Positions 24,432 to 45,236 of a stretch of DNA of 54,126 nt are shown piece after piece. The notes beneath the pieces are model-generated. The model searched no databases. It was not told the origin of the DNA and worked only from the letters and a program-made list of their open reading frames with translations. Within the stretch, counting starts at the first letter, position 1; each line of letters starts with the position of its first letter. The stretch spans positions 1 through 54,126 of the IMG/VR virus record IMGVR_UViG_3300027911_000017; one strand, written 5' to 3'. The position numbers and the translations under genes were made by a program. This DNA comes from a virus.

Positions 24432-24469
24432 CTACAACAAAGTTACGTACACGCGGCGATTTTGTGACA
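24432..24469 (-). promoter_or_regulatory. Control module B (minus orientation)
   Basis: Minus strand reads TGTCACAAAA (24469-24460), an 11-base spacer, ACGTAACTT (24448-24440), then TGTTGTAG. An A/T-rich tract lies upstream. Same order and spacing as modules A and C. It faces the replication genes beginning at 24287, so it may be their promoter or operator. Lies in the gene-free stretch 24288-24573, whose remaining part (24288-24400) shows nothing certain. Confidence 0.5.
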
Positions 24470-24489
24470 GATTTTTTGAAAATAAATGT

Positions 24490-24556
24490 AAAAATATTTT
24501 GTCACAAAACACCCCCGGCAAACGTAACTTCGTTGTAGCCCAACGGAAACGAAGTT
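24490..24556 (+). promoter_or_regulatory. Control module A (plus orientation)
   Basis: A 20-base block at 24490-24509 ending TTTTGTCACAAAA is identical to that at 42949-42968. It is followed by a 12-base spacer, ACGTAACTT (24522-24530) and CGTTGTAG. AACTTCGTT (24526-24534) can pair with AACGAAGTT (24548-24556). With module B it makes a divergent pair whose TTTTGTGACA and TGTCACAAAA ends form an inverted repeat across 24460-24509. Confidence 0.5.
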
Positions 24557-28004: not shown

Positions 28005-28279
28005 AGAACACCTCCTCTCTGTATAATTCTCTGATACAACGAACGTGTTATTCGCGTCCTCTTTGGCTCCTGACAAATATACAGATACCAACCTGCGGGA
28101 AGCTTTGTTCGTGCAAGGTATTCCAACTTTGCACTACGAGAAATACCCGGAACTTGGAGTAAGGCTACATTAAAAACAGGATCATCCATACATAGCTTTG
28201 TCAAATACGTCAAAGCCCGTACTCCTGTATATGTCCTTATCCCTTTCTGCACTAAAACTATCCGTGTTCTTGTGCTCAC
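28001..28279 (-). CDS. Small hypothetical protein of amidoligase cluster
   Basis: 92 residues from GTG 28279, which overlaps the ATP-grasp stop as GTGA behind GGAGGG. Basic, mixed alpha/beta (TYLTKLCMDDPVFNVALLQV, GWYLYICQEPKRTR). Coupled on both sides. Function unknown. Confidence 0.6.
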   Translation of the reverse strand: MSTRTRIVLVQKGIRTYTGVRALTYLTKLCMDDPVFNVALLQVPGISRSAKLEYLARTKLPAGWYLYICQEPKRTRITRSLYQRIIQRGGVL

Positions 28280-29040
28280 AAACCCTCCGCCCAATTGGAG
28301 ATAGCTTTTGCCAGTCGAACGCCCGAACTACGAGCGGGCTTATCTATATGGGGCATGGAATTAACCTCCAATACATAAAGTAAACCATCCTTGCCTAACA
28401 ACAGATCAACGGCACCCCAATCCATTTCAAGGGCTGATACAGCTTGTATGGCAGGTACTGTTATAGCCTTATGAGTACGAAGTTCATCCTTCTTTTCAAA
28501 CTTAAAACCAAATCTTCGATTCCGGCAATAGCCTTGATACTCACCCTCACCTTTGTAGACCTTTTCATACATGGCCAAGGCCTTATTTTGAAAGACCCAT
28601 ACCCGATATTCCGTCTGAGTAGGGATAAAGACAGAGAAGAAGTCGTGGTTGCCTTCGGCAATAACCCGATACACTTCCTCTGAAGTCTCACACACAGCAA
28701 TGTCCTTTCCTTTCGTGTGATGTACCCTTCGCGCAAGCCAAGGCAGACTAGGACCATCGTTGGGGTGGAGTTCCGCATCTCTCATGCCCACGGTAACAGG
28801 GCACCGAACACCCGCTCGACCAAAAGCCTCAAAAGCAGAGTATTTATCGTACCGATTTACCATGGCATTAAGGGCTGGTTTATTTCCCTCGTAGGAAATA
28901 CCCCAGCGTAAGGTGACATCCCACCCCTCAGGGTCCTTTGCATCCCTAGTAACCCTATGTCCAAGGTTTTCCAGATGCCCTTTTACAATGTTAATCGCGG
29001 TATTACTACGCTTACCTCCTGCAATGTAAATAGACTTCAT
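28276..29040 (-). CDS. ATP-grasp ligase (RimK-like)
   Basis: 254 residues. N-terminal pre-ATP-grasp domain, then the ATP-grasp fold: Lys in HHTKGKDIAV, EYRVWVF (Arg146), MDWGAVDLLL (Asp212), and the metal-binding pair LEVNS (Glu225, Asn227). Such enzymes join a carboxylate to an amine through an acyl phosphate. Directly after a glutamine amidotransferase and near two COOH-NH2 ligases, it fits the phage amidoligase systems predicted from comparative genomics. Substrate unknown. Confidence 0.8.
   Translation of the reverse strand: MKSIYIAGGKRSNTAINIVKGHLENLGHRVTRDAKDPEGWDVTLRWGISYEGNKPALNAMVNRYDKYSAFEAFGRAGVRCPVTVGMRDAELHPNDGPSLPWLARRVHHTKGKDIAVCETSEEVYRVIAEGNHDFFSVFIPTQTEYRVWVFQNKALAMYEKVYKGEGEYQGYCRNRRFGFKFEKKDELRTHKAITVPAIQAVSALEMDWGAVDLLLGKDGLLYVLEVNSMPHIDKPARSSGVRLAKAISNWAEGL
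28921..28936 (-). repeat. GGACCC-N-GGGTGG hairpin motif, copy 11
   Basis: Reverse orientation, loop TGAG, in the ATP-grasp gene. Confidence 0.75.
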
Positions 29041-30041
29041 TAGTTTACCTTCTCCTTCTTGACACGAAACTCAGGAGGCGGCCACAGTCTACCTCCACAT
29101 CCTTTTTTCTCTTTTGGACAATTAAAGTTCATATACTGTCCATCCTTAGGAATTAACCACATCTTGTTGCACGTGTGACACCAAGCGTCCTTGCGTTCTT
29201 CTACTCCCTGTTTCTGAGTAGCCGCATCCCATTTCGCTTGTCGTTTTGCGTATTCTTCATAAGTCTTACGCCAAGGTTCACTAAAGTTGCCCCCTGATAT
29301 TTGGCAGGGACGCTTGAGTTCAATGCCCCCAAGACTAAGAATCCAACCCGTATTATCAGGCATGTTAGTAAAAGCTACATCCGGCTTCTGTGCCTGAAAC
29401 CAGATACCCTTACGTTCAACAAAGGGTCTACACGCTTTATGTAAGGTATTCTTCTCACTTGAAAAGAAGAAGAAATCTTCATTGCTGGCTAATACAAGTG
29501 GATTTCCACTTCGTATCAGCATAAGCTTATCTGGATGTTCTGGATGGATAGCTGCGATAGCTCCACTACCTGAAGCTCGACCAAGTTGTTGCATAGTCGT
29601 TTCCCTGAATCCAAATTCATCCACAATGGCTCGAATGACATCGGAATCGGTATCCGCTTTGCGCTCTAGTTTAAGTTGCTCAAATAACCATTTATCATTT
29701 CGAATAACTCCATTGTGGATGATGGCAGCTTTTCCTGCGTACATAGGGTGATTGTTATTATTATCCCGTGGATTCCCCTGAGAAGCCCCTCTTGCATGAA
29801 TAAGAGCACATCTCGTATCGGGTTTAAGATGATCTCGAATAAACGTAGTATACTCATGTGAGCCCACTAACGTCCATCCGGGTACATCTTTCTTGAGAAT
29901 GGAAATAGAGCCGTCAGCCTGCTGAAGCGCAATGCCTGACGCATCGTTACCCCTGTGTTCATTCCCTACAAGAAGAATACCTATTGTTTCTTCTTCAATA
30001 GGTTTATCCCCCCATCGAACTATTCCTGCTATACCGCACAT
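29040..30041 (-). CDS. Class II glutamine amidotransferase with zinc ribbon
   Basis: 333 residues beginning Met-Cys, giving the N-terminal nucleophile Cys2 (CGIAGIVRWG). Further Ntn-amidotransferase boxes: GNEHRGNDASG, IHARGASQGN, IIHNGVIRN, and TDSDVIRAI. The C-terminus carries a zinc ribbon (CHTCNKMW then CPKEKKGC). It releases ammonia from glutamine for a ligase partner. The next gene (ATP-grasp) overlaps its stop as TAATG, pointing to a joint reaction. Confidence 0.8.
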   Translation of the reverse strand: MCGIAGIVRWGDKPIEEETIGILLVGNEHRGNDASGIALQQADGSISILKKDVPGWTLVGSHEYTTFIRDHLKPDTRCALIHARGASQGNPRDNNNNHPMYAGKAAIIHNGVIRNDKWLFEQLKLERKADTDSDVIRAIVDEFGFRETTMQQLGRASGSGAIAAIHPEHPDKLMLIRSGNPLVLASNEDFFFFSSEKNTLHKACRPFVERKGIWFQAQKPDVAFTNMPDNTGWILSLGGIELKRPCQISGGNFSEPWRKTYEEYAKRQAKWDAATQKQGVEERKDAWCHTCNKMWLIPKDGQYMNFNCPKEKKGCGGRLWPPPEFRVKKEKVN

Positions 30042-30063
30042 TTAGTCATAACCTCCTTTAAGC

Positions 30064-31629
30064 TTAGAAGCCATCATCTCTACGAATCACACGTTTCTTT
30101 CGTCTCTGAACTGGATTCACGTAATCAGGTATCCCTGCTCTAGCAGGCCTTCCGGGATATGGAGGCACAGGATCATATCTCACATTGTCTACTACATGTT
30201 CCTCTGGTAGATTGAATATATCTCTTGGTCCTACCTCTTTCGCCACCTCCTTTTTACCAACTTGTTCTACGCCTTGTTCACCCATGATGAGTTTGACAAC
30301 TCGCCCTAATTTAGAGGGGGCTTGAACCTCATTCTTTTTGAAGACTTCTACTTTATCCCATTTAGTCCAATCTGTCGTGTGAAACTCACTTGCCCTACAC
30401 AAGGGTAACAAACTCGAATTTGCCAAAAGTTTATTGAACGTCTTACAGCTTTTTAAGCAAGTATTTATATAGCTAGGCACGTGTAAAGTAGCCACTCCTA
30501 AGTTATTAGATACGGGGAAGAGAGAGAGCCTAAACCCTTCAGCAGCAAATGCCTTAACTAAGGCATTTCTATCCAGCGGATAGGAATGATACAATGTAGG
30601 CGTAGCCACGGAAGGAGTCATCTCTACTCCAAAAGAAAATCTATAGCTCAGCAACTCCGCTCCTACATCTGGTAAATGCCCTAAACTGTGCGGTTGTATA
30701 TGCACAAGAGAAACGTCCTTAGGTAAGGTGTAGGGTGCCCACGTAACAGAAGGTGCTTTATAACTTACAAAAGGCATTCCATGTACAAAATGATTGAACA
30801 ACCCCCTACATGTCTCAAAAGAGGGGGCTAAAGCACTTGGAATAAAGTAATGAGAAGAATCAGAACAAATACCCACATTACCTGACCAGACACCCCAACG
30901 ATACTTAAAATCAGTCATGTCTTCCTTCGGTTTACCTATTCGTTTAACTGTTTCAAAGGCAATAGCCGCGTCTTGATCTTTATCTTTGTACCTTTCAAGC
31001 AAAGTAGCGGAGTCTGGAAGAGAAGCAGCCCCTATGCCTGCAAATAGCTTTCCATCATGTACTGCAAGCTTTGCTACCGTTAAAACATAAAAGGTAAGCC
31101 ACGGACTTGCCAGATATGTAGGGGTAGTTCTATACTCATACCCATATACCTGTGCGCGAAAGTCACCCCACTTTCCGTATTTTGTACCCTGCCGTCTTGC
31201 CAAAAAATAATTTTTAAGTAGCACCCCTTCAGCCATCAATCGAGAAGTCAGATTATCCATAATACGGATTTCTGTATCTCTCGTCGGACGCCTACGACCA
31301 AAGTGTATATGGCCTCCACAGCCATCCTTACCGTTGAAGGCAGTAGCCATCCAGTGTAAGTTCATGACTTCATCTTTATGGAAAGCTCCCATCCATTGCA
31401 AGGCTTCTGCTAAGGAAGCAGTAACCTCTAACGCAGAACGGGAAGGAATCGTGCGTAACTCTGCTTGCCGTCCCGCCATATCACAACCAAAAGCTCTGGT
31501 AGTGTTCAAACCTAGAGTTTCAGCGTGTATATACGAACCCGCAGCATTTACAAGGATAAACTCAGGATCTGCTCCTATCTTAAAATGGTTCACTAACCTT
31601 GGATGCTGCGTGTAGGACGTTAACCGCAT
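30064..31629 (-). CDS. COOH-NH2 ligase type 2 (glutamine-synthetase-like amidoligase) 1
   Basis: 521 residues. GADPEF (19-24), GCGGHIHFG (103-111) and YGYEYRT (162-168) are the signature boxes of phiEco32-type COOH-NH2 ligases: acidic metal ligands, the HxH glycine loop, and the substrate-binding E-x-R. These enzymes have a glutamine-synthetase-like fold and form amide or peptide bonds with ATP. The C-terminal 150 residues are an extra basic tail. First of two ligases in this cluster; 22 bases separate it from the amidotransferase gene. Confidence 0.8.
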   Translation of the reverse strand: MRLTSYTQHPRLVNHFKIGADPEFILVNAAGSYIHAETLGLNTTRAFGCDMAGRQAELRTIPSRSALEVTASLAEALQWMGAFHKDEVMNLHWMATAFNGKDGCGGHIHFGRRRPTRDTEIRIMDNLTSRLMAEGVLLKNYFLARRQGTKYGKWGDFRAQVYGYEYRTTPTYLASPWLTFYVLTVAKLAVHDGKLFAGIGAASLPDSATLLERYKDKDQDAAIAFETVKRIGKPKEDMTDFKYRWGVWSGNVGICSDSSHYFIPSALAPSFETCRGLFNHFVHGMPFVSYKAPSVTWAPYTLPKDVSLVHIQPHSLGHLPDVGAELLSYRFSFGVEMTPSVATPTLYHSYPLDRNALVKAFAAEGFRLSLFPVSNNLGVATLHVPSYINTCLKSCKTFNKLLANSSLLPLCRASEFHTTDWTKWDKVEVFKKNEVQAPSKLGRVVKLIMGEQGVEQVGKKEVAKEVGPRDIFNLPEEHVVDNVRYDPVPPYPGRPARAGIPDYVNPVQRRKKRVIRRDDGF

Positions 31630-32159
31630 TACTTAACCCCCTTTTTAACCAATTCTAAAGCCCCAGCTAATGCACTCGGCTGTGCTTCTGACTCACACCA
31701 TACCTGTTGACATCCTTTAGTACACAAAGGAACGCCCCACTTAGTTCGTGTAGTCTTAAAATCACAAATAACACACATTGAATCTCGATCAAGCAGAGCA
31801 AATGCAGCTACCAAGACTTGATAGCATCCTTGTTTGTCGTTATGCTCTTTTCTAGCAGCAGGATTCTCGCAATCTGTATTTCCGCAACAACGACACTCCG
31901 CTATCAATCCGGGCATAGGACCAGACCACGTTGTTAGACACCAAAATCTATACTCCCAAAACTCGAAATCAGGCCCACTATACGGAGTATACTCTAGTGT
32001 GTGCCACCCCAATCTACCAGAAGTATCCAAAGGCATTGTAAAACTCTTAAACTGACTGACAACAGGAGGAATAACCAAGACAGGCTTGGGGCTTGTCCTC
32101 CACCCATGAGGCATCATTTTCTGTGTAATAACTGATCTTGGTAATCTTATCTCAGCCAC
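31629..32159 (-). CDS. Cys-rich zinc-binding hypothetical protein
   Basis: 176 residues from GTG 32159 (GGAGG upstream). The second half has many Cys/His: CRCCGNTDC, then CVIC and CTKGCQQVWC, suggesting two or more zinc sites. The first half is Trp/Tyr-rich. Its stop overlaps the ligase start (TAATG). It could carry or hold a substrate of the ligases; unproven. Confidence 0.6.
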   Translation of the reverse strand: MAEIRLPRSVITQKMMPHGWRTSPKPVLVIPPVVSQFKSFTMPLDTSGRLGWHTLEYTPYSGPDFEFWEYRFWCLTTWSGPMPGLIAECRCCGNTDCENPAARKEHNDKQGCYQVLVAAFALLDRDSMCVICDFKTTRTKWGVPLCTKGCQQVWCESEAQPSALAGALELVKKGVK

Positions 32160-32431
32160 ATTGCCTCCAAAAAGTCTTAGGGGCTTACCCTCCCACTTAC
32201 AGATAAGCCCTCCCTAAGTCACCGCTTCCCTTTCTTTTTCGGGCCATGTTCGTCAACACAGTAGGAAGTTAGGCTGCTTTGAGTTCCCTAAGGAACATAC
32301 AAGCTTCATACCCTAGTAAAGCTCGTCAGTTACCCAAGCTTTACACTACATCACCCCGCATAAACGTCTACTCATTGGCTTGAGCGACGCAGGGTGAATC
32401 TCTTAATAGAAGGATTAGACTCAATCCTTGC
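32160..32431 (-). other. Gene-free structured 272-base region
   Basis: Minus-strand leader of the Cys-rich protein and ligase genes. Stems: AAGGATT/AATCCTT just after the 32432 stop; GTAAAGCT/AGCTTTAC with a 13-base loop; GTTCC/GGAAC; GGGCTTA/TAAGCCC just before the ribosome site. A 16-codon frame starting MARKRKGSG lies inside but has no ribosome site. No tRNA features found. Possibly a regulatory leader. Confidence 0.45.
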
Positions 32432-32932
32432 CTATACATCAAACTCCAACCCCGGCATCTTGTGTTCATGCCCCATGTTTTTAGTTAAGTACACAACCTC
32501 ATTACCCGACTTGGCATTTCTAAACAATTCGCTTGCCTGCCAGCCTCTCTTAAGACCCAAAGACCACCAGTAGCCCTGCAAGCCCCGTTCAGGACGAACC
32601 ACCTGTGTCATAAGTAGGCTGCCAAATCCCGAAGTATAGGTGGCTTCTTCAATAATCTTCAGTGCTGCGTCATAGTTCTGTTCAGTTGCAGGGGCGACGT
32701 TGATGTACCCAATAACCAAAACCGCGCAACACGCGGGCATTTGCTGTGCCCTAAAGTGTACGGTAAAGTCCTTTGTAGCAAACGCACAAGATATTTGCTC
32801 CCAATCTAGGCTAGGTTTAGATGCGCTAGGCACTGTCTCACATTCAAACCCTCTATCTTCACACAGCTTCTTCAACACATCCACAAACACGTTGGGATGC
32901 AAAACACCATTTATTGCTGGATGTAAATCCAT
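32432..32932 (-). CDS. Hypothetical protein
   Basis: 166 residues from ATG 32932, overlapping the GGCT stop as TGATG. Mixed alpha/beta with ACCAVLVIGYIN and a Trp-rich GLQGYWWSLGLKRGW. It is coupled to the cyclotransferase gene and followed by the structured gap. No family recognised. Confidence 0.55.
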   Translation of the reverse strand: MDLHPAINGVLHPNVFVDVLKKLCEDRGFECETVPSASKPSLDWEQISCAFATKDFTVHFRAQQMPACCAVLVIGYINVAPATEQNYDAALKIIEEATYTSGFGSLLMTQVVRPERGLQGYWWSLGLKRGWQASELFRNAKSGNEVVYLTKNMGHEHKMPGLEFDV

Positions 32933-33321
32933 CAAAACCTCCCATTCTTAATCACGTTTTCTTGCGGAAAATGTCTATAGGTATGCTCATAAACCCAAGC
33001 AGAGGCAAACTCATCATCCACAAGCTTTCGAGTATAGGTAATCCCATTGTTCTCGATTTGGTCAAGCCACGGCCAGAGCTTCTCAGGAATTTCCCAAAGC
33101 TCCCCGTGTACCTTATCCTCAAGATTGGCAGTAAACCTTAAGCCAACTCCGCTATACTCTCTGCCATCATTGGGATGCCCTTCATGGTCCCAGCGTCGGC
33201 CAATGCCGTAGAGAACAGCGCTATTAAGCGTGGCCTCTTGGAGGAACTTAGCTCCATAATGCGATACGTCCAGCTCGTATCCGCGCTTTAGAATGCCGTA
33301 AACGAATAGCCTGTTGTTCAT
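32932..33321 (-). CDS. Gamma-glutamylcyclotransferase-like (GGCT/AIG2) protein
   Basis: 129 residues from ATG 33321 (AAAGGAAAAC upstream). The family's FVYGILKRG (6-14) forms the substrate-binding loop, VHGELWEI (71-78) follows, and WLDQIE ends with Glu90 in the place of the catalytic Glu. GGCT enzymes release pyroglutamate from gamma-glutamyl amides. In amidoligase clusters they are thought to trim or reverse the ligated product. Confidence 0.8.
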   Translation of the reverse strand: MNNRLFVYGILKRGYELDVSHYGAKFLQEATLNSAVLYGIGRRWDHEGHPNDGREYSGVGLRFTANLEDKVHGELWEIPEKLWPWLDQIENNGITYTRKLVDDEFASAWVYEHTYRHFPQENVIKNGRF

Positions 33322-33339
33322 TGTTTTCCTTTCCATACC

Positions 33340-33659
33340 CCACAGACTCATACAGACCGTCACTTACAAGGTTGTGTCCTAATTTGTCCTACACCAGAGT
33401 TATGTATTTGCCCCGCCGGACAGCTATTGATCCCTTACTATAAACGCGCGTGAACGGAGTTACTGGTACTAAGTACGTTCACAAAGTCACGCTCATAAGG
33501 GTAGTCTCCGCACTTTAATGTTGACAAGTCACCCTCCCTGACTCAGAAGATAAGTTGCTCCAAGAAGGTGTTAACCTCCTCCCAACCCGTAAGGGCCGCT
33601 GGAACAGTTATCGCAAATTGCGTTAGCATCCTGAAATGACGGTCTGTATCAGTCTATGG
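33340..33659 (-). ncRNA. Candidate large structured RNA closed by a 23-base inverted repeat
   Basis: Arms at 33340-33362 and 33637-33659 match in 21 of 23 positions. On the minus-strand transcript one of the two differences becomes a G-U pair, favouring RNA pairing in that direction. The enclosed 274 bases hold GTGAACG/CGTTCAC with an inner GTAC/GTAC hairpin (33450-33482), AGTCA/TGACT (33527-33543), CCC-GTAA-GGG, and a TGTCCTA direct repeat. No open frame of note. It could be a regulatory RNA, an intron relic or a small mobile repeat. Confidence 0.45.
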
Positions 33660-33875
33660 AGTTCCTTTCTCACATTTGGCAGCGGCTATATGACATTCTG
33701 CCCGCGTGCAAACATGGATACCCTTCATTTCTAATACCGCAGGTCTACCACACGTACAAGTCATGTCTGTGTCTAGCACACCTACCCCGGCACAGTAGTT
33801 ACACGCACCGTTCATAAAGTGGGCAAACACATCGCATATTTGCCTGCCTTTACACATTGGACATGGAAATTTCAC
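33654..33875 (-). CDS. Zinc-finger protein, DnaJ-type cysteine pattern
   Basis: 73 residues from GTG 33875, overlapping the ligase stop as GTGA after AGGGGG. Cys pairs: CPMC-KGRQIC, CNYC-AGVG, CTCG, then CTRAEC, resembling DnaJ-like zinc fingers. Coupled to the second ligase. Role unknown, possibly holding a ligation target. Confidence 0.6.
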   Translation of the reverse strand: MKFPCPMCKGRQICDVFAHFMNGACNYCAGVGVLDTDMTCTCGRPAVLEMKGIHVCTRAECHIAAAKCEKGTP

Positions 33876-34873
33876 AATCCCCCTTGATCCCACCTTGCCC
33901 AAGCTACTTTTGCATCGGGTATCCAGTCATCCTGAAAGTGCCAATTCCTTGCAAAATCTTCCGGGTAGGGCACAACAGCTTCCAAGCCAACATTGCATAA
34001 TGCAAAAACACGCTCTATACAGGCCTCTTCCGCAGCGGGATACGTCTGCTTCAACAGCCACGTAAACAAACCCCGATTCCGCCATATAATCCGGCGAGCT
34101 TGATCCACATCGCAGCTTTGAATCGTATGAATTGTCTCCTTCTCATCCCCCGCCCAAAGCTTCCAGTAACGCGAACGGGCAAACTGTACGCAAGTCCTGC
34201 CAATATCCCAAGTCAACTGCATAATCCGTGGAGAAGCCAACCACCAATTCGACAGAGTACGGTATTCAACTCCATATCCTGTGGCATAATTAGGTGCCCT
34301 GTACTCTCCCGGTAAGCCATAGAACTTCCGTCGAACAGGATCATCCCAGTTTTGAGCCACGCCTACCGCCCAGACGCCGAGAATCATATCCAATGTCTTG
34401 ATAATCTTCTCGTAATTTGGCTTAGTCCTCTTCCACGTTCCAAAGTGCATATGCCCACCCGCAAAGCGGAACTTCAACTGTCGAGCATTGGGTACCTTCA
34501 TTCCCGCTAAGTTATAGGCATTAAAACTCGGCTGACAACCAAGCTCTACGTGTGCGTGCTGTGCCGTTTGAAGTGTTTCTACTGGAATCTTAACCACATT
34601 CTTCAGAGTCAATCGTCCTTGCGGGTTAAACAGCTTAACCTTATCCGCCAACAGCATTAGCCGATCTCGCGTTTCTTTAATAAGATTATTCTGACAGTAA
34701 TGGGGCTGAAGATACTTCCATTCAGCTTGGAAGCCATCCCAATACAACAACGCACGACCCGTGTTGGGTGGCAGGAAGTTAAACGCGGGAATCAGCTCTT
34801 CCCCTGCCATAACAAACATCTCCGGGTCAGCCCCAAAGGTTAATTGCTTCCTTTTAGCTAGGACACCTTCCAT
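33872..34873 (-). CDS. COOH-NH2 ligase type 2 (amidoligase) 2
   Basis: 333 residues from ATG 34873 (AAGGTGAG upstream; an ATG at 34888 is in frame but has a weak site). GADPEMF (14-20), AGGHMHFG (138-145) and GYGVEYRT (199-206) repeat the three boxes of the ligase at 30064-31629. Apart from these boxes the two proteins are clearly different, so they probably use different substrates. It lacks the basic C-terminal extension. Confidence 0.8.
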   Translation of the reverse strand: MEGVLAKRKQLTFGADPEMFVMAGEELIPAFNFLPPNTGRALLYWDGFQAEWKYLQPHYCQNNLIKETRDRLMLLADKVKLFNPQGRLTLKNVVKIPVETLQTAQHAHVELGCQPSFNAYNLAGMKVPNARQLKFRFAGGHMHFGTWKRTKPNYEKIIKTLDMILGVWAVGVAQNWDDPVRRKFYGLPGEYRAPNYATGYGVEYRTLSNWWLASPRIMQLTWDIGRTCVQFARSRYWKLWAGDEKETIHTIQSCDVDQARRIIWRNRGLFTWLLKQTYPAAEEACIERVFALCNVGLEAVVPYPEDFARNWHFQDDWIPDAKVAWARWDQGGL

Positions 34874-34899
34874 ACTCTCACCTTCCATTCTTGGCTAAA

Positions 34900-39766: not shown

Positions 39767-39876
39767 GTTCCTATCCTTAAGCAATCGCTCACCTCTCCCC
39801 AAGGGACTGATTAGAGCGAAAGCTTGAAGATATAACAAGTCTTTACCTTGAGCACTCCTATTGTATTACCTGCTCC

Positions 39877-40030
39877 AACTCCCACTCCCACTCCAACTCC
39901 TACTCCTACTCCTACTCCCACTCCAACTCCCACTCCTACTCCAACTCCTACTCCTACTCCTACTCCCACTCCAACTCCCACTCCTACTCCTACTCCAACT
40001 CCCACTCCCACTCCAACTCCCACTCTCACT
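39877..40030. repeat. Hexanucleotide tandem repeat (ACTCCN)
   Basis: About 25 uninterrupted copies of a six-base unit, ACTCCC, ACTCCA or ACTCCT, ending with one ACTCTC. The only differences are at the last base. On the plus strand it would encode Pro-Thr repeats, on the minus strand Gly-Val repeats. Neither frame has a ribosome site and both flanks are ordinary minus-strand sequence, so it is treated as non-coding. Copy number should vary by slippage. Confidence 0.9.
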
Positions 40031-40063
40031 CAGGCGGATATACCTGTTTCGCCTGCTGCGCAA

Positions 40064-40655: not shown

Positions 40656-40779
40656 GGCTCAGCAGCTCCCTACAGCAGGTTAGGTAATAAATCATGTGTG
40701 CATCGGCCTCAAGGTTCCGAAAAGACTCAGGTGAACGCCTAATATCCCAAGTGGCCTCAATGTAGCTATTGTTTTTCAA
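40606..40779 (-). CDS. Small hypothetical protein, TTG start
   Basis: 57 residues from TTG 40779 (AGGTGG upstream), overlapping the preceding stop by 14 bases. Contains SPESFRNLEADAHMIYYLTCC, a helix with two Cys. The start is uncertain, and the gene is weaker than its neighbours. Confidence 0.4.
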   Translation of the reverse strand: MKNNSYIEATWDIRRSPESFRNLEADAHMIYYLTCCRELLSHEQRLIAKSSIGINPR

Positions 40780-41041
40780 GGTAAGCCACCTGTATTGCTT
40801 CGTATACCTCATTCGGAAGCTCAGCTTGCAGCGGTTCCTGATAGATATACCAGCCCTCTCGATCATAGTACAAACCCACTTCGAGCGGAGCCGCAACTAC
40901 AAACTCAGCTCCAAAGTAAACCTTCACCTGCTTGTTAGGCAGTAACTCACAGACAGCAGCCTGATCTACCTTGCCCTCATCAATCCATCGTTCCGTTTTA
41001 GGCAAGGCTGTAACAAACTTGGTGCCCACTTCCACATGCAT
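40766..41041 (-). CDS. Hypothetical beta-rich protein
   Basis: 91 residues from ATG 41041 (GAAGGA upstream). Barrel-like strand pattern HVEVGTKFVTALP, QAAVCELLPNKQVKVYFGAEFVV, GWYIYQEPL, then a C-terminal helix. It is the first gene after the ribozyme and hairpin region, so its mRNA would carry the ribozyme's 3' product as leader. Function unknown. Confidence 0.55.
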   Translation of the reverse strand: MHVEVGTKFVTALPKTERWIDEGKVDQAAVCELLPNKQVKVYFGAEFVVAAPLEVGLYYDREGWYIYQEPLQAELPNEVYEAIQVAYLEKQ

Positions 41042-41086
41042 CTTATCCTTCACCTTGTTTGCCTCCCTCTGTGACTGGCTGTAAGA

Positions 41087-41159
41087 CCAGAGCAAACAGC
41101 GCGTCCTACGGTGAAGTCCACTTGCAAGCCTTAGAGTTACCGTAGGCAGTTTGCTCTGG
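41087..41159 (-). ncRNA. Long two-part hairpin next to hammerhead ribozyme
   Basis: Perfect 11-pair outer stem CCAGAGCAAAC/GTTTGCTCTGG (41087-41097, 41149-41159) and perfect 8-pair inner stem CCTACGGT/ACCGTAGG (41105-41112, 41139-41146). Its outer stem shares bases 41158-41159 with stem II of the ribozyme, so the two structures compete at that point. It lies in the leader of the gene starting at 41041. Confidence 0.7.
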
Positions 41160-41221
41160 CCTCATCAGCTAGTGTGTTACACTAGGACTAGGTACAGTGT
41201 CATCTGTACCTAGTTTCGGCC
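41158..41221 (-). ncRNA. Type II hammerhead ribozyme
   Basis: Minus strand, in order: GGCC, GAA, stem III of 11 pairs (ACTAGGTACAG / CTGTACCTAGT, loop ATGACA), cleavage base C (41186), stem I of 7 pairs (CTAGTGT / ACACTAG, loop AAC), core CTGATGA (41168-41162), GGCC. The two GGCC tracts pair as stem II, which is the open stem, giving the type II permutation. Every conserved core position (CUGAUGA, GAA, A15.1-U16.1, H17=C) is present. Predicted cut is between 41186 and 41185. It begins one base after the TAA of the 72-residue gene. Confidence 0.9.
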
Positions 41222-41440
41222 TTACTTACTCGCAACCTCCGCGATGCCCCCGCATGACACCATCACAGCCGTTGGTGTGAGATGCTTAAACGTGGGATCA
41301 CCGCCATTCTGGCAGGTAATCACCGCTTCAGTCACACTCAGATGCGTAAGTTTATACATGTACTTCAGCTTAGGCGTCTGAGCATAGGCTGTCGCACCAA
41401 ACAACGCGATAGCCAGCCAGAGATATGCTCGTTTCTTCAT
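41222..41440 (-). CDS. Small secreted protein
   Basis: 72 residues, GGGAGG site. Signal peptide KRAYLWLAIALFGATAYA with cleavage before QTP; mature part about 52 residues with two Cys (ITCQNGG, VSCGG) that can form a disulphide. Periplasmic; function unknown. The hammerhead ribozyme follows its stop codon directly. Confidence 0.65.
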   Translation of the reverse strand: MKKRAYLWLAIALFGATAYAQTPKLKYMYKLTHLSVTEAVITCQNGGDPTFKHLTPTAVMVSCGGIAEVASK

Positions 41441-42701: not shown

Positions 42702-42948
42702 TGATCTTCCCTTAGCTTGCATTGCCGTAGGCAAACCACGTGGGCTGCCGGAGCGCCAGCGGAGGGCAGACCGATTTGGCTAGAATTTTTCTAGAGCTAG
42801 TATAGCGCAAGCCGTGCGCAGGTCATGCGCTAGTTAAGGTGTACTAGGATTCTAAAGGAGTTAAAGTCCTTTAGATTCAAATAGTTAACTTTTTCTGAAA
42901 TTTCGCTAAAAATAATTTTACTTTTGTTGATTCTAAAGGACTTATTTG

Positions 42949-43270: not shown

Positions 43271-43711
43271 ATGGGAAGACCGGAGAAGCTAGAAAACTGG
43301 CTGATTGAGGCTGCGGAGGTTATGGCCCGTGAGGGTGTTACTCTTAGGGAAGCCGCAGGGATGCTTAATCAGGATGTCACCGCAGATGAGTGTGATGTCA
43401 TTGTACGCCGTAAGAGTTTCCATAGATTACTTTGGGAGTCTAGGTTAAGGTACTTTAATCAGTTAGCTGTTGACCCAAACTTTAAGAAAGATACTATAAT
43501 AGGCAAGCTCGTCACCCTAGCTCAACGGTTGGAAGACCGGGGAGACTATGATAAGGCAGCCGAAGCCATCCTTAAGGCTGCCAAGGTCGCTGGGTTCGTG
43601 GGTCCGGAATCAACTGTAAGTGTGTTTGGAGAGCTGAGTCAGGCTGATTTGGACAGTATTAGACGCAAAGTTGAAGAGGGTGCAATAGGTGTCAAGTCAA
43701 GACCGAACTGA
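43271..43711 (+). CDS. terS: Terminase small subunit
   Basis: 146 residues. N-terminal helix-turn-helix-like part (WLIEAAEVMAREGVTLREAAGML), then helices (LVTLAQRLEDRGDYDKAAEAILKAAKVAGF), a usual small-terminase arrangement of DNA binding plus oligomerisation. It precedes the large subunit with a 23-base overlap. It recognises phage DNA and starts packaging. Confidence 0.75.
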   Translation: MGRPEKLENWLIEAAEVMAREGVTLREAAGMLNQDVTADECDVIVRRKSFHRLLWESRLRYFNQLAVDPNFKKDTIIGKLVTLAQRLEDRGDYDKAAEAILKAAKVAGFVGPESTVSVFGELSQADLDSIRRKVEEGAIGVKSRPN

Positions 43712-45236
43712 AAAGATCACTCAAGCCCTCGGTGAACTTGAACGTATGTCCCCTCAGGAGCAGCTTGCTGCTCTAGACATCCTTCAGGAACGTAGGGTAA
43801 AGAAGAACTATATTCGTTACTTCCAACCGTGGGAGCCGGATCAGGCTGAGGCGGTTAAGCAGTTTACCCAAGACATTAAGGTATTTGGCTTGCTCGGGGG
43901 AAATAGAAGTGGAAAGACCATCCTCGGAGCTTTCATCTGTGTTGCGTGGTGTCTCGGAAAAGATTACTTCAAGGGCGAACCAGCTTGGAAATGGGTGGAA
44001 AATCTCCCTATTCCTAAGGGACCAGTCAACGTCTGGGTCGTTGGAGTGGACTTTCCTACTCTGCGCGATGTTATATGGCATGAAAAATTACGTTTTGGAA
44101 AGACCCATCCTGCTTTCCTCCCTGACGATTCCAATGTCGTTAGTAACATCAGGGACGGTGACTTCCAGATTTTCTTCAAGAATGGAACAATTCTTACAGG
44201 AAAGTCTGCGGAAGCTGGACGAGAAAAGTTTCAAGGGGCAAGCGTAGACCTCATTTGGATTGATGAAGAATGCGAAAAGGATGTCTACGATGAGTGCTAT
44301 CAGCGAACCATTGACTGTTCGGGCAAGATTCTTCTTACGCAGACACCCCTTACAGATATCAACTCTGGAGTACGAGAACCTTGGGTATTCGACCTCTATG
44401 AGGAATGGCTCGCAGGAGATAAGTCCCTTTGTTTCTGCCAGCTCTCAACTCTTAACAGCCCTTTTATCTCCGCTAAAGACAAAGAAGAAACACTAAAGAA
44501 GTGGGAAGGCACGCCAGAAGAAGGCGCACGGCTATATGGCAAGTTCGTTCGCAGATCAGGGCTTGTATACCCAAACTTTAGCAAAGCTGTCCATATTGTC
44601 AAGCCATTCTCGATACCACGATATTGGACGAGAGTCGTATCTATTGATCCCGCTGCTACTGGGATTACTGCTGGCCTGTGGCTCGCTATTAGTCCTGAGG
44701 GTGATTATTTTGCTTTCAGAGAGTACTATGAGCGGGAAAAGACAGTAATTGAACACGCCAAGAGTTTAATGATGCTCGTAGCTGGGGAGCCCATTGACTA
44801 TTGGTTACTGGACCCCACATGGGGTGGACAACGAAATGCCGAGAATCACAAGAATGGAGCACAGCTTTATCGAGAAGCTGGAATCCCCGTTAGACTGCCC
44901 GATGTTGGGAAAGACTTTGGACTCAATGTTAGCCGTGAGTACATCACCGCTACGGTCACTCCGGGCTCAAGACATCCGAAATTTTATTGTTTTGAAGGGC
45001 TTCCGAACTTTGAACATGAAATAACTCACTATACTTGGGATACTTTTGGTAAGGGTGAGCAGAAGGGGCTCAGCAAAGAAAAGCCTCGTAAACGGAATGA
45101 CCACCTCATTAACGCTATGCAGTATGCCATGTGCCTTCGTTTGAAGGGGGCAAAGCGACGAGGTGAAACGGATGGATGGTTTGGAATTGATCCTGAAGCT
45201 GCTAAGAAAAGAACAGCTTTAGTATCGTACACTTAA
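43689..45236 (+). CDS. terL: Terminase large subunit
   Basis: 515 residues from GTG 43689 (GAGGG upstream). ATPase: Walker A GGNRSGKT (70-77), Walker B VDLIWIDEE (187-195), coupling motif LLTQTP (215-220). Nuclease: RVVSIDPAATG with Asp320, YWLLDPTWGG with Asp375, and NDHLINAMQYA with Asp471. It drives DNA into the procapsid and cuts it. Copy 16 of the hairpin motif lies in the codons around Asp375. Confidence 0.92.
   Translation: MSSQDRTEKITQALGELERMSPQEQLAALDILQERRVKKNYIRYFQPWEPDQAEAVKQFTQDIKVFGLLGGNRSGKTILGAFICVAWCLGKDYFKGEPAWKWVENLPIPKGPVNVWVVGVDFPTLRDVIWHEKLRFGKTHPAFLPDDSNVVSNIRDGDFQIFFKNGTILTGKSAEAGREKFQGASVDLIWIDEECEKDVYDECYQRTIDCSGKILLTQTPLTDINSGVREPWVFDLYEEWLAGDKSLCFCQLSTLNSPFISAKDKEETLKKWEGTPEEGARLYGKFVRRSGLVYPNFSKAVHIVKPFSIPRYWTRVVSIDPAATGITAGLWLAISPEGDYFAFREYYEREKTVIEHAKSLMMLVAGEPIDYWLLDPTWGGQRNAENHKNGAQLYREAGIPVRLPDVGKDFGLNVSREYITATVTPGSRHPKFYCFEGLPNFEHEITHYTWDTFGKGEQKGLSKEKPRKRNDHLINAMQYAMCLRLKGAKRRGETDGWFGIDPEAAKKRTALVSYT
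44810..44827 (+). repeat. GGACCC-N-GGGTGG hairpin motif, copy 16
   Basis: Loop CACATG, stem extended by one C-G pair, in terL. Confidence 0.7.

Follow-up and report, generated by a model that had tools for sequence, protein, structure and literature searches.

Background

Natural type II hammerhead ribozymes, including clusters of them in prophages, were described by Perreault et al. in 2011 (PMC3088659). The prophage clusters were found to cleave in vitro, and one of them in E. coli, and the same study proposed that hammerheads process long phage transcripts (PMC3088659). A tested intergenic hammerhead of Pseudomonas phage PaP3 carries a core variation (PMC3088659, Figure S6 legend). According to a later paper, it is still not known why bacterial hammerheads should be associated with phage genes (PMC10085705).

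The hammerhead analysed here lies on the minus strand of a 54 kb virus contig, IMG/VR record IMGVR_UViG_3300027911_000017; the whole stretch of 54,126 nucleotides is referred to as the window. It resembles the elements of Perreault et al. in its core, its permutation with stem II open, its short stem II and its place between genes of a phage transcript, and its relatives, like theirs, form same-strand clusters. The consensus of Perreault et al. has a pseudoknot between loop I and the 3′ tail, whereas the subclass of the window instead has a near-invariant A directly 5′ of stem II, A(-1), and a near-invariant U in loop I. The main text of that paper nowhere uses the words "stop codon" (PMC3088659), while members of the present subclass are often fused to one; and the largest cluster tested there was a triple arrangement, compared with up to 11 copies in the arrays below. 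The window phage and PaP3 both have a rightward terminase, a leftward operon with amidoligase-type genes and an intergenic hammerhead. The PaP3 hammerhead was not located with our independent covariance model, Rfam or relaxed descriptors, and no sequence relation to the window copy emerged. A DNA similarity search of the locus against named phages gave no match.

Self-cleavage within an mRNA also occurs in the glmS ribozyme and other self-cleaving mRNA elements, with a fold unrelated to that of the window hammerhead. The glmS ribozyme is ligand-dependent and lies in a 5′ leader, whereas the window hammerhead lies at the 3′ end of a gene, between two genes.

Sequence and predicted fold of the ribozyme

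Read on the minus strand from 41221 to 41158, the element is GGCC GAAA CTAGGTACAG ATGACA CTGTACCTAG T C CTAGTGT AAC ACACTAG CTGATGA GGCC. All core bases of a type II hammerhead are present at 41217-41162 (CUGANGA, GAA, the A15.1-U16.1 pair and H17 at the cut), and around them stand stems I, II and III of 7, 4 and 11 pairs, I and III closed by loops and II open. The 5′ strand of stem II, GGCC (41221-41218), is followed by the core GAA (41217-41215) and A15.1 (41214). Stem III, identified from the fold, is an 11-bp hairpin at 41214-41187, in which 41214-41204 pairs with 41197-41187; its strands are CTAGGTACAG and CTGTACCTAG, its 6-nt loop lies at 41203-41198, and U16.1 is at 41187. Alignment of the hammerhead core places the predicted cleavage site between C17 (41186) and N1.1 (41185). 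Downstream of it lie the 17-nt hairpin of stem I (41185-41169, CTAGTGT/ACACTAG), with 7 bp, or 6 bp and a 5-nt loop, and with the loop-I U at 41179; the core CUGAUGA (41168-41162); and the 3′ strand of stem II, GGCC (41161-41158). Both core segments were assigned from sequence and covariance model, and both strands of stem II from sequence and fold. A(-1), at 41222, is the last base of the TAA of the preceding gene.

The minimum-energy RNA fold of the 64 nucleotides is exactly the hammerhead structure (-28.4 kcal/mol, z -5.1), and none of 200 shuffles did as well. A descriptor covering the three hammerhead permutations matched the 54 kb window at one site, 41158-41221. In 100 dinucleotide shuffles of the window, the relaxed descriptor matched seven times, never with stems of at least 6/4/8 pairs.

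An earlier note on this DNA had described a complete type II core with a stem I of 7 pairs, a stem III of 11 and an open GGCC/GGCC stem II. That description is borne out by sequence, fold and shuffles, and also by the independent model, covariation and relatives reported below; the cut predicted in it between 41186 and 41185 agrees with the core alignment. The single base placed there between the TAA and the ribozyme was an error, as the stop codon (41224-41222) directly abuts the ribozyme. Judged by its sequence, the element is a type II hammerhead and almost certainly self-cutting.

Covariance models

A search of the site against Rfam gave no match, and Hammerhead_II (RF02276, threshold 37 bits) found none in the whole record either. 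The earlier note had named the lack of a score with a type II hammerhead covariance model as a refutation of the site, and with the Rfam model that outcome did occur. RF02276 has the permutation and the core in common with the window copy and is nevertheless blind to it, and it recovered only 3 of 31 subclass relatives in ten loci and none of 21 in seventeen other loci. Since the Rfam model misses nearly all relatives of the subclass, its silence on the window reflects the model and does not count against the site.

An independent covariance model was built from 27 phage hammerheads, with the window left out. Covariation within this training set is partly built in, because the sequences had been picked for their stems. 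With filters off, the model found a single hammerhead in the window, with a score of 63.9 bits and an E-value of 8e-18 (its E-values are only approximate, unlike its bit scores); the next-best site reached 11.2 bits.

Relatives in viral contigs and their shared features

Relatives were collected by pattern scans. The first pattern specified the core and the two strands of stem II only (GGCCGAAA, 38-60 free bases, CTGATGAGGCC) and matched 102 stretches of IMG/VR DNA; stems I and III were also present in 73 of the 103 loci obtained when the window is counted in. Three such scans of viral contigs together yielded 213 distinct structured hammerheads in 182 loci, or 166 clusters once similar flanks were joined. 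In bacterial genomes 82 stretches fitted the pattern; only 7 distinct hits were structured and 74 were unstructured, the latter being used as a control.

The patterns put no constraint on the base 5′ of stem II or on the stem I loop, so that neither A(-1) nor the loop U was imposed by the search. The base directly 5′ of stem II was nevertheless A in 165 of the 166 clusters, compared with 26% of the unstructured bacterial-genome matches, and the first loop base was U in all 128 clusters whose stem I is 17 nt long. Both bases are present in the window. A pseudoknot between loop I and the 3′ tail would have 2-3 pairs in the window, and across the subclass the mean was 2.78 pairs against 2.83 with shuffled partners, which is no signal. 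The two near-invariant bases likely point to a tertiary contact of the stem I loop with the stem II region, and this contact is likely to run from the loop U to the A, a kind known from other hammerheads.

Hammerheads in terminase-related phages

As a landmark for finding related phages we used the divergent large subunit of the terminase (43689-45236, plus strand; phrog_2, E 2.9e-29), which shares 26-28% identity with its best matches among named phages, including Pseudomonas phage PaP4. When the contigs of terminase relatives were searched with the independent model, hammerheads were found in L106, L115/L420 (two), L004 and its near twin L040 (two each), L423, L424, L427 and L442 (two). L106 has a terminase 80% identical to that of the window, and two proteins encoded upstream of the window site resemble L106 genes (homologous by eye). 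L004 and L040 had been picked up by the pattern alone, ahead of the terminase search. The hammerheads of these relatives have the corresponding position in the leftward operon: they are encoded opposite to the terminase and lie about 1.3-3.3 kb upstream of its start, and in the window this distance is 2.5 kb; the immediate neighbour genes of the site differ among the related phages.

Across ten copies from the phage group of the window, both partners vary in 16 of 19 pairs, and pairing is kept in 97.4% of pair cells, compared with about 40% or less in a slid-partner control, in an alignment that was fitted to the covariance model and so leans towards it. The window copy scores above all but one of the related copies. 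Several terminase relatives, including the whole contigs L107, L117 and L122, gave no hammerhead in the covariance-model search; therefore, the element is not essential to this phage group.

Two of the related copies, L106 2552-2650 and L442 3942-4017, have an additional U inserted between the CUGAUGA core and stem II, and L442 also has a mismatch at A15.1. From their sequences, these variants are possibly weakened or decaying copies.

Gene context, stop-codon fusion and arrays

The window ribozyme sits between two genes of its own strand and interrupts neither. The upstream gene (41222-41440, minus strand), whose stop codon abuts the ribozyme, encodes a 72-aa small protein with a signal-peptide-like start. 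The window copy of this protein has no Pfam or PHROG match, and a pattern scan of viral contigs for its relatives confirmed none. A homologue 35% identical to it is encoded in L115 (1348-1563, minus strand), and both proteins have a C.NGGDPT stretch and a later VSCG. The downstream gene (40766-41053, minus strand) encodes 95 aa with no family match; it starts with a GTG at 41053, 105 nt past the last ribozyme base, and is preceded by a Shine-Dalgarno-like AGGGAGG at about 41068-41062. Promoter and terminator scans around the locus gave results close to those of shuffles.

The same arrangement recurs among the relatives. With ORFs of at least 40 codons called mechanically, so that exact percentages are soft, a same-strand ORF ends within 60 nt upstream in 86% of the first 85 distinct copies (random same-strand, 26%; antisense, 26%), and in 38%, versus 0.8% at random, a stop codon either runs right up to the ribozyme or, as TAG, supplies the first G of the ribozyme. 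In the three structured viral sets an upstream same-strand ORF end within 60 nt was found in 89-100% and a fused stop in 36-40%, compared with 23% and 0% for the 74 unstructured bacterial-genome matches. Unstructured viral matches, few in number (12-14 per set), were intermediate in context, probably because real hammerheads with other stem layouts are among them. The next ORF mostly starts within 40 nt downstream of the relatives' ribozymes.

Long arrays were found in L278 (eleven copies), L002 (nine), L273 (nine) and L257 (eight), each wholly on one strand. In these four contigs, L278 being covered whole, the spacing is mostly 250-900 nt, with nearly one ribozyme per small ORF, between successive ORFs. 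No description of stop-codon fusion or of arrays of such size was found in the literature, in a search that did not extend to most subscription journals or preprints.

On this pattern of sequence and context, the window element belongs to a large and largely unannotated set of phage hammerheads that lie between genes, often share the stop codon and sometimes follow nearly every gene of an operon. As the Rfam model misses this subclass, cut sites are probably present without annotation in many phage genomes, where they would mislead the interpretation of operons and RNA-seq data.

Proposed mechanism

A putative role as an operon-processing site, as suggested in the earlier note, is well supported by gene context, namely the stop-codon fusion and the same-strand arrays between genes. 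The idea of operon processing is not new, as it had already been put forward for clustered prophage hammerheads (PMC3088659); less expected are the stop fusion, the long arrays and, at this locus, the competing hairpin described below.

From the observed sequence, fold and relatedness, we infer a functional natural type II hammerhead that a tailed phage would transcribe as part of its leftward operon. After passage of RNA polymerase beyond 41158, the RNA would fold so that stem II stays open, loop I would dock beside stem II, probably using the conserved loop U together with the A directly 5′ of stem II, and self-cleavage would follow between 41186 and 41185. The mRNA upstream of the cut would then end 36 nt past the stop of the 72-aa gene, in the 11-bp hairpin of stem III and with a 2′,3′-cyclic phosphate; the downstream mRNA would begin with a 5′-OH and the 6-7-bp hairpin of stem I, followed by the leader of the 95-aa gene. 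With the site at the stop codon, the upstream reading frame would stay whole. Hairpins at 3′ or 5′ RNA ends generally slow bacterial RNA decay, and the two parts of the operon would gain separate ends and separate stabilities. We consider it likely that the site is of this kind, cutting the leftward mRNA in two by self-cleavage and leaving a hairpin on both new ends.

A wider reading, less likely than not, is offered tentatively: many phages may punctuate their operons gene by gene with a distinct, pseudoknot-free type II subclass fused to the stop codon, which would itself provide A(-1). Translation termination would then be linked to cleavage, and operons would be cut into single-gene mRNAs with hairpins at both ends, the window hairpin adding on/off control. 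What bacterial and phage hammerheads do biologically has been an open question since 2011, and the stop fusion, strict strand bias and arrays allow the processing hypothesis to be tested directly, with simple constructs.

Competing hairpin and alternative explanations

Directly downstream, the minus strand can form a strong hairpin at 41165-41084 (z -4.7), with arms at 41162-41146 and 41100-41084. Its outer stem takes in 41165-41158, that is, part of the core and the 3′ GGCC of stem II, and by folding prediction it therefore competes with the ribozyme fold. When growing transcripts were folded at equilibrium, the probability of stem II was 0.98 with the RNA end at 41090 and 0.002 at 41086; some intermediate lengths were also unfavourable to it. 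In the full leader, the hairpin that takes the GGCC is favoured over the ribozyme fold by about 8-10 kcal/mol in a nearest-neighbour model that excludes tertiary contacts, and the ribozyme may therefore act only briefly during transcription. Cleavage could thus take place during transcription, or the hairpin could act as a gate, or it could lock the downstream product after the cut. The second of these would make the hammerhead real but gated, a switch between cutting and non-cutting states in which cleavage depends on transcription speed, on pausing or on something that opens the hairpin. The strength of the hairpin and the steep fall in stem II probability agree with such a switch, as does the competing stem of 13 bp, longer than in any of 208 relatives measured (largest, 10). 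We think the switch unlikely all the same: the hairpin could equally act post-cleavage, holding the downstream product against reversal of the cut. Competing stems were also rejected as a family feature, with no excess in the relatives and downstream stems in related phages mostly within chance.

The remaining alternatives concern the nature of the element itself. It might be a hammerhead-like relic, once active and now reduced to stable hairpins that shield RNA ends or serve as spacers between genes, and some relatives do lack core or stem bases, as the extra U of L106 and the A15.1 mismatch and extra U of L442 illustrate. The window copy retains all core bases and both conserved contact bases and outscores all but one related copy, which makes a relic improbable here. 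Hammerheads elsewhere, in retrozymes and viroid-like RNAs, yield unit-length RNAs, and circular products have been considered for clustered prophage hammerheads (PMC3088659). That the window element is part of such a circular RNA or mobile element is highly improbable, as the single hammerhead found with filters off bounds no unit between two sites, and it has an ordinary small gene on either side. Phage genes often have hairpins between them, and two intergenic ones might by chance resemble a hammerhead core; the likelihood of this is negligible, and chance resemblance is refuted by the lack of stem-matched sites in the 100 shuffles, the out-of-sample covariance score (E 8e-18) and the homologous position in related phages.

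Other features of the genome

The leftward cluster at 28276-34888 encodes a glutamine amidotransferase, a RimK-like ATP-grasp protein and two COOH-NH2 ligases, as in PaP3-like phages. Also in the leftward operon, 39873-40031 consists of about 26 six-base units (CTCCCA/CTCCTA) that give low-complexity (VG)n or (TP)n frames. The divergent region ahead of the terminase genes contains overlapping long inverted repeats at 42848-42943, upstream of the first leftward gene; these may be a promoter, an origin or a regulatory site. Two nested inverted repeats, with arms of 17 and 18 nt, are located at 24432-24538.
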